64,000 nt of DNA from NCBI RefSeq assembly GCF_014863545.1, contig NZ_CP062260.1, forward strand, positions 5,039,501-5,103,500, written 5' to 3'. Position 1 is the first letter of the stretch; every line of letters begins with the position of its first letter. The translations under genes were made by a program, and so were the position numbers. This document shows, one piece after another, positions 11,102 to 12,095 of this stretch. The stretch comes from Paenibacillus sp. JNUCC32. GTDB lineage: Bacteria; Bacillota; Bacilli; Paenibacillales; Paenibacillaceae. The notes under the pieces were generated by a model. That model saw only the letters and a list, made by a program, of their open reading frames with translations. It made no database searches and was not told where the DNA came from.

Positions 11102-11130
11102 TTGCAACCTGGGCGGGAAGCCTTTATAAT
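11102..11130 (+). promoter_or_regulatory. Promoter of the Fur-controlled small unit
   Basis: TTGCAA (-35, 11102-11107), 17-base spacer, TATAAT (-10, 11125-11130). Transcription should start near 11137, directly in front of the Fur box. A leader of about 120 bases precedes the small gene. Confidence 0.75.
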
Positions 11131-11144
11131 GAGAATTAACCACA

Positions 11145-11159
11145 TGATAATGATTATCA
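11145..11159. promoter_or_regulatory. Fur box
   Basis: TGATAATGATTATCA, an exact copy of the Bacillus 7-1-7 Fur box (TGATAATNATTATCA). Extended to 19 bases it matches GATAATGATAATCATTATC at 17 positions. It covers about +8 to +23 of the predicted transcript, a classic repression position. Confidence 0.88.
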
Positions 11160-11257
11160 TTACCGGACAAGTGAGAATGTGTTGAGAATGTATTTATACT
11201 CAGGTTTACACGCTTTTCGCTTGAAGAGTTTATATACAAAGGAGAGCCGATTGACTT

Positions 11258-11410
11258 ATGAAAACGACTTCCCGCCGCTGTTCTCTGCAAATGGATGATT
11301 ATTTGGACCTGCTGAACCTCGCGATCCAGCTTGGAGACGTGAAGTGGCAGAAAGAAATCACCCGCAAAATGGAAATGACGCTGTCCACATTAGAGACTGC
11401 AGCTCAATAA
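11258..11410 (+). CDS. Fur-controlled 50-residue protein
   Basis: A 50-codon gene between a Fur-box promoter and a terminator. The start ATG lies about 12 bases after GGAGA, a little far; an in-frame stop just upstream rules out a longer form. The product has a polar N-terminus (KTTSRRCS) and a helical stretch DDYLDLLNLAIQLGDVKWQK continuing to a KMEMTL end. That stretch faintly resembles IDEAL-type helical motifs, but I do not recognise a family with confidence. It has equal acidic and basic residues, unlike the basic FbpA/B proteins of B. subtilis. Its role may lie in the iron-sparing response, by context only. Confidence 0.65.
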   Translation: MKTTSRRCSLQMDDYLDLLNLAIQLGDVKWQKEITRKMEMTLSTLETAAQ

Positions 11411-11443
11411 ATAACACAGGGATTACATAATCCTGCATATAGG

Positions 11444-11502
11444 AAAGACACCCGATCACTATTCCAGGCATGTCCTTGAAAAGCAGATCAGGTGTCTTTT
11501 TT
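11444..11502 (+). terminator. Terminator of the Fur-controlled unit
   Basis: Stem AAAGACACC-C-GATC pairs with GATC-A-GGTGTCTTT (one mismatch), 28-base loop, then TTTTTT on the plus strand. The minus-strand membrane-protein gene ending at 11544 may share it. Confidence 0.8.
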
Positions 11503-11543
11503 CCGTCTACTGTCGTTTCTTCTCCGGGTTCCGGCACTCTAAA

Positions 11544-12095
11544 CTACTTCTTCGCAAAACCATCCAAATCATGCTTCAACCTGTTGTTAAGCGCTACCAA
11601 TTCGTCGTAATCGGAAATGTCCAGATTGACTTCTCCCCCCTCAACCGAATCCGTAACGTAATACACCTTGTACATCAGGGAAATCAATGCTTCCGAATCC
11701 TTCATGATGATCGCGTACTTCTCGATGTCTTCCTCCGAGAACTCCCCGTTCTCCGCATAGCTTTCCCGTATGCTGTCGGACAGAGCCAGGAACTTTCCTG
11801 CGATGGGGTTAAGCAGCTGCGAACGGACGGCTTCATCCGCTGTCTTGGAATACGCTTCGATGGCCGCCAGCTTCAGCCGCACTTCCGCAAGGCGCGCTTC
11901 ATGAAGGGGCATGGACTTCAGCTCCAAAATGTCGGTGTAATGGCTCCATATTTGAAATAGAGATGTGCCCAATATGCTTTGCAAGGTCATTTTCGTTCCC
12001 TGTTCGATCTTCTTCTGATGTTCAATCAGAAACACGGTGCAGGCCAGCACCAATGCTACCATCCATACCCAGATCCATTTTGCTGAATTCGTCAT
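11544..12095 (-). CDS. Membrane-anchored protein of unknown function
   Basis: Protein of 183 residues, not recognised. One N-terminal membrane helix (about 6-24) with a short cytoplasmic end is followed by a soluble, mostly helical outer domain. The domain holds many charged heptad-like runs (for example LAEVRLKLAAIEAYSKTADE), which suggests a small helical bundle. Start ATG follows GGAGG. It is a single gene on the minus strand, convergent with the Fur-controlled unit. No catalytic motif is visible. Confidence 0.7.
   Translation of the reverse strand: MTNSAKWIWVWMVALVLACTVFLIEHQKKIEQGTKMTLQSILGTSLFQIWSHYTDILELKSMPLHEARLAEVRLKLAAIEAYSKTADEAVRSQLLNPIAGKFLALSDSIRESYAENGEFSEEDIEKYAIIMKDSEALISLMYKVYYVTDSVEGGEVNLDISDYDELVALNNRLKHDLDGFAKK

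Follow-up and report, generated by a model that had tools for sequence, protein, structure and literature searches.

Organization of the locus

The window analyzed here, a stretch of 64,000 nucleotides from Paenibacillus sp. JNUCC32 (contig NZ_CP062260.1), carries a complete small unit at 11102–11502, in which the promoter, the exact Fur box, the leader of about 120 nt, the 50-codon frame and the terminator-like hairpin listed in a preliminary description of this DNA were all found in place (Table 1). The unit is preceded on the same strand by an AraC-family gene (HTH_18, 3.2e-22) that extends to 11070, and followed by an ORF on the opposite strand (11544–12095), for which no Pfam family was above cut-off.

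Table 1 Features of the small transcription unit (window coordinates)
Feature	Position	Strand	Basis or remark
Sigma-A-type promoter, TTGCAA-17-TATAAT	11102..11130	+	Promoter scan; 10/12 consensus positions
Fur box TGATAATGATTATCA, exact 7-1-7	11145..11159	+	Counted from the inferred transcription start, about +8 to +22
Two TGAGAATG half-site-like repeats, 3' of the Fur box	11172..11190	+	By eye; partly retained in some close relatives
5' leader, inferred transcription start to start codon, about 121 nt	11137..11257	+	Start inferred from the -10 element
Shine-Dalgarno (SD) sequence AAAGGAGAG	11238..11246	+	Read from the sequence
50-residue protein MKTTSRRCSLQMDDYLDLLNLAIQLGDVKWQKEITRKMEMTLSTLETAAQ, ATG at 11258	11258..11410	+	ORF list and conservation
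Small 3' UTR hairpin GGGATTACATAATCCT	11419..11434	+	Folding; by eye partly retained in some close relatives
Terminator-like stem-loop ending in a T run	11441..11502	+	Folding

The promoter match taken alone is weak and does not go beyond chance, since three promoter-like sites were counted in 600 nt against 1.3 expected from shuffled sequences. The stretch 11408–11505 folds at -28.6 kcal/mol (z -4.19), with none of 200 shuffles being equally stable; a simple terminator scan left the plus-strand stem unflagged, probably because this stem is long and interrupted. The two TGAGAATG repeats could serve as extra Fur half-sites in this clade.

The Fur box in the genome

Boxes of the exact type occur six times in the 7.0-Mb genome, the one described here included, and sites with at most two mismatches occur 51 times, against 13 for a reversed control pattern. 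Within the window, the box of the small gene is the sole match with at most two mismatches, where 0.33 were expected and 28 of 100 shuffles gave at least one. The 15 places with zero or one mismatch, less the unit itself and allowing for one overlapping pair, left 13 other sites, and 12 of these precede iron-related gene families according to a Pfam scan of the 12 proteins: eight Peripla_BP_2 proteins, one FecCD protein, two pyridine-nucleotide reductases and one ABM monooxygenase, the reductases and the monooxygenase being taken by us to serve iron use. In two of the eight Peripla_BP_2 proteins the domain lies behind AraC domains, and one of these two (L093) is just under the cut-off for the binding domain. 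Judged by the genes behind these 13 sites, the Fur box of the small gene is one of a group of sites that stand, for the most part, in front of iron genes.

The 13th site, a one-mismatch box (L092:1501–1515; G000:C1:1516783), precedes a large secreted chitinase-like ORF, which makes it an unusual candidate Fur target. The possibility that this near-box marks another Fur-controlled sRNA was rejected, as the chitinase-like ORF, identified from its sequence, follows it.

Distribution of the gene and its linkage to the Fur box

A strong match to the protein (best E ≤5e-10) was found in 59 of 61 genomes of the same genus, the source genome counted, and the short form is absent from the remaining two (G020 and G029) in this search. 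At all 60 loci compared, 59 from the genus and one from a member of another family (G065), a box matching at least 12 of the 14 positions lies within 400 nt upstream of the gene. A second, overlapping set, made up of the best 80 of 163 relatives, covers Paenibacillus, Fontibacillus, Saccharibacillus, one Paenibacillaceae MAG and one record titled Bacillus; here, a box of at least 12/14 was present within 300 nt in 79 of 80 loci and, after correction of the start codon, in 80 of 80, with 71 boxes being exact. Control ORFs of at least 150 codons from the same loci, whether real or not, reached 13/14 in 0 of 328 cases and 12/14 in two. An order-wide search added 29 loci, all with a box of at least 13/14, nine of the genomes being shared with the 60-locus set. 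The presence of the gene behind Fur boxes in other Paenibacillaceae, which the preliminary description had raised as a point to be checked, is thus borne out across Paenibacillus, Fontibacillus and Saccharibacillus.

In the order as a whole, the short form (best E ≤1.3e-17) was counted by eye in 140 of 296 genomes, a sample that lies apart from G020 and G029. The carriers are all sampled members of the genera g1 (51), g24 (54), g25 (14) and g26 (20), which belong to the family of the source genome, together with G065 from another family; the other 156 genomes have weaker matches or none. A pattern combining the box with an SD sequence matched in 33 of 60 genomes, mostly at places other than this gene. 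Seven loci of one clade (L018, L041, L053, L055, L057, L058 and L060) carry a differing 12/14 form of the box before the same gene, exemplified by TGAGAAAGATTATCATTGAGAATGA, which contains two overlapping sites.

An SD-like motif was present upstream in 78 of 80 loci, and a terminator-like structure, by our own criterion, lay no more than 170 nt after the stop codon in 62 of 80, with none in the other 18. At least six kinds of neighbourhood layout were seen, and no constant neighbour or operon partner was found among the gene neighbourhoods compared. One large clade (cluster 3, 24 loci) has the same downstream gene on the same strand; because of this gene and the 18 loci with no terminator-like structure, a monocistronic organization is not proven everywhere.

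The conserved product of the unit

The preliminary description had allowed the transcript to act as an sRNA, to encode a peptide, or to do both. In the 32-codon core of the reading frame, pN/pS was 0.124 (nine loci), 0.049 (37 loci) and 0.151 (seven loci) in three clades, which cover 53 of the 60 loci, seven belonging to no clade, and in each of the three the base conservation was lowest at third codon positions. The frame is kept and the changes are mostly synonymous, an outcome on which the preliminary description had let its reading depend.

The remainder of the transcript behaves differently. Among ten members of the clade, with L101 excluded for its 213-nt leader, identity was 0.75 in the coding sequence and 0.74 in the promoter with the box, against 0.60 in the SD stretch, 0.52 in the leader between the box and the SD sequence and 0.41 in the 3' 90 nt. 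Moreover, the distance from the box to the start codon ranges from 28 to 213 nt in the 80 loci, with a median of 61 nt. Since the length and sequence of the leader and the 3' region drift and the coding sequence is under selection, the comparison identifies the protein, not an sRNA, as the conserved product. The proposal that the transcript acts as an sRNA was accordingly not supported, and an sRNA residing in the leader was rejected as the main function.

A dual-function transcript, that is, a regulatory RNA with the peptide as its second product, would be consistent with the folding of the whole transcript, which is more stable than that of shuffles (z -2.29, with 2 of 100 equally stable), and with the identity among five close relatives, which reaches 0.96 in the SD region and 0.89 in the promoter-box segment, with 0.85 in the coding sequence, 0.71 in the leader and 0.57 in the 3' region. 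The 3' hairpins by themselves, however, are far more stable than their shuffles, and much of the stability of the whole may be due to them; no Rfam family, FsrA (RF02273) included, reached its gathering score in the window; and the divergence of the leader and 3' region among the ten members, the variable box-to-start distance and the concentration of changes at third codon positions within the coding sequence all point the other way. We consider this alternative unlikely, although the RNA may have a minor role, and retain the peptide as the conserved product.

Features and relatives of the protein

The core of the family follows the consensus L-x(2)-DDYLDLLNLA-x(3)-GD-x-KWQKEI-x-RKL. Ten columns (M1, D13, D14, Y15, L16, D17, A22, D27, W30 and I34) are invariant in 40 of 45 distinct sequences, and seven of them (D13, D14, L16, A22, D27, W30 and I34) in 43 more diverse ones; neither alignment, of 40 and of 43 sequences, contains an invariant Cys or His, and no membrane-spanning stretch was seen by eye in the aligned members. 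The protein probably folds into a pair of short helices with a G-D turn between them. Its description as not basic holds for the clade of the window protein (pI 6.08) and fails for the family, in which the median pI is 8.6, with values of at least 8 in 49 of 80 members and below 7 in 24.

The nearest described family is DUF7667 (PF24704), made up of Paenibacillus chromosomal and phage proteins whose function is uncharacterized. It was scored by all 43 members (best E 2.3e-5; 24.9 bits for L019), and the window protein obtained 21.3 bits, where the cut-off is 27, over profile positions 41–69 of 76 only. Profile comparison (hhalign) gave a probability of 87.6%, with none of 150 shuffles as good, and P0078, one of the 120 homologues listed out of 385, has a precomputed PF24704 assignment. 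The sub-threshold similarity and this assignment place the family at the edge of DUF7667: homology to the C-terminal half of DUF7667 is supported, whereas the small protein lacks the N-terminal half and stays below the curated cut-off. The DUF7667 proteins inspected (L178–L190; phage H4–H13) end in the same core, and 39 Paenibacillus phage records were found. Of 30 genomes searched for DUF7667 itself, 14 contain it at E ≤0.001, and in 13 of these the score is above cut-off.

Other collections added little. Eleven further Pfam families gave one to five weak matches each among the 43 members, which were taken as chance, as were four NCBIfam families at E ≥0.024 among the same members; the window protein had no NCBIfam match. 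A search of solved structures returned no meaningful relative (best E 0.34), the phage collection queried with the window protein gave E 8 matches in two records of the same Vibrio phage, and the plasmid collection gave a partial match in one Paenibacillus record (9e-4).

Longer Paenibacillus paralogues of 98–114 residues, including L061:749–1090 (core at G000:C1:20343–20468), L062, L063, L065, L066, L067, L070 and others, share the DDYLDL...GD..WQ core at their N-terminus (hhalign 99.1%, 0 of 150 shuffles) and differ in having a conserved C-terminal addition (ELW..D.IN..L, WELK..R). No good Fur box was found within 400 nt upstream of the nine aligned ones, the best matching 8–10 of 14 positions, and no Pfam family was above cut-off in those scanned. 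The L061 paralogue adjoins a response regulator and the L070 paralogue a histidine kinase. A further protein of 135 residues (L069:708–1112), encoded upstream of a PAS histidine kinase, has no Pfam match; it combines a CxxC-type, possibly zinc-binding N-terminus with a weakly similar core, ALDLLTIAIQMHDEKWEGELKKRL, at its end, and ORFs of about 137 codons with matches like that of L069 are present in many genomes.

Discussion

Proposed function

We propose that the small gene stands alone and is repressed by Fur-Fe(II). In low iron, Fur would leave the box just 3' of the promoter and the mRNA would be made, its function being to specify a soluble protein about 50 residues long. This protein would bind another macromolecule and so act in trans; its part in the iron-starvation (iron-sparing) response of lineages in which FsrA and FbpB were not detected would probably be that of an adaptor or inhibitor. 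Action in trans is the most likely mode because the neighbourhood layouts differ in at least six ways and no neighbour is constant. We consider it reasonably probable, judging from the sequence comparisons, that the gene encodes a Fur-repressed, trans-acting protein of the iron-starvation response; that its role there is iron sparing is less certain, and we propose it tentatively.

A direct role in iron uptake, for instance through modulation of a transporter for siderophores or haem, or the binding of ferrous iron by the acidic motif, would agree with the operator type that the gene has in common with uptake genes and with the conservation of DDYxD and D27. Yet no uptake gene was recognized in the 22 largest neighbour clusters, for each of which a single representative was considered over its first 90 residues, and the aligned members show neither a membrane-spanning stretch nor an invariant Cys or His; such a role seems unlikely.

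The names of the 120 homologues listed out of 385 are mostly "hypothetical protein", with a few referring to a sporulation inhibitor or histidine kinase, IDEAL or MarR. Sda has a helical-hairpin fold and binds to a kinase domain, and an Sda-like antikinase, a two-helix protein blocking a sporulation histidine kinase under iron shortage, would fit the similar length, the similar run (by eye) of an acidic start, AV, an aromatic residue and EI, and the UniRef names beginning with "Sporulation histidine kinase" (P0028, P0061) or "Sporulation inhibitor A" (P0045) among those listed relatives, but we hold it to be unlikely, given a profile probability (hhalign) of 0.2% against 19 Sda sequences from relatives, with 78 of 150 column shuffles scoring as high, and separate Sda genes above cut-off in 19 of 21 genomes. 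Membership in Sda (PF08970, no match among the 43 members) was rejected at the sequence level on these profile scores, and so was membership in IDEAL (PF08858), which had no match among the 43 members and an hhalign probability of 0.4%, with 106 of 150 shuffles as high; the likeness to both is confined to their being short proteins or domains and to the few relatives that bear such names. A Fur-repressed protein acting in trans remains our preferred reading.

Significance

Among the papers listed from the open-licence literature, covered at the level of titles and abstract openings, no paper describing this protein was found, and none for DUF7667. In P. riograndensis, 34 small-protein transcripts are reported (PMC5670726), and the gene may be among them. 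The present analysis adds a second small protein with a Fur box upstream, unrelated by profile to FbpA and FbpB. Nearly every member sampled from four genera carries it, its invariant core is sharply delimited, and an sRNA partner has so far not been found. The analysis also points to a protein family for which a separate curated description is lacking, in a genus some of whose species promote plant growth, and it makes it possible to ask directly if an iron-sparing response can rest on one small protein without further partners of that system.

Comparison with the FsrA/Fbp system of Bacillus

The iron-sparing response of B. subtilis is made up of FsrA together with FbpA, FbpB and FbpC, and the mode of action of the Fbp proteins is described as still open (PMC7430163; PMC12871923).

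The FsrA model, built from other lineages and run with stricter filters, stayed below cut-off in all 60 genomes searched (37 of the same genus and 23 others), a result that a diverged sRNA could escape. Weak sub-threshold matches, 18 in all, occurred in 17 of the 60 genomes, and in the eight loci viewed, a Fur-like site of 12/14 was present in two, the others having at most 11/14: in L071 the site lies 213 nt before the weak match, and in L077 it lies on the far side. The source genome has two such matches. One of them (G000:C1:5106753), 3.3 kb beyond the window, was discarded as a candidate, the best Fur site in its 3-kb locus being 10/14; the second is at 3583479. FbpB was above cut-off in 0 of 40 genomes (25 of the same genus) and FbpA in one of 60 (37 of the same genus), namely G001, where the match contains an internal stop and falls short of the cut-off unless its neighbours in the frame are included. 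In each of the FsrA, FbpB and FbpA searches, one of 14 control genomes passed, presumably B. subtilis, which is among the matching ones.

At the protein level, neither the window protein nor any of the 43 members matched PF13076 or PF13040 at E ≤10 in a Pfam scan whose HMMER filters discard most very weak matches. The view that the protein does not resemble the Fbp proteins was therefore upheld for FbpA and FbpB, to which it is unrelated by profile, and the protein of the window clade also differs from FbpA–C in not being basic (pI 6.1). At the same time, FbpA, FbpB and FbpC with FsrA are the closest functional analogue, the likeness being that of a very short protein under predicted Fur control: the product is Fbp-like in its predicted control and its size, yet no member of FbpA or FbpB. 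In these bacteria the small protein may take the place that the FsrA RNA and the Fbp proteins, to which it is unrelated, have in Bacillus. A more far-reaching version, which we regard as doubtful and put forward as speculation, is that in Paenibacillus and its near relatives a single Fur-controlled two-helix protein has taken over from the FsrA/Fbp machinery of iron sparing. This protein, whose module also occurs in the DUF7667 proteins of Paenibacillus phages and in the longer paralogues, would redirect iron use through a protein partner and not through RNA pairing.
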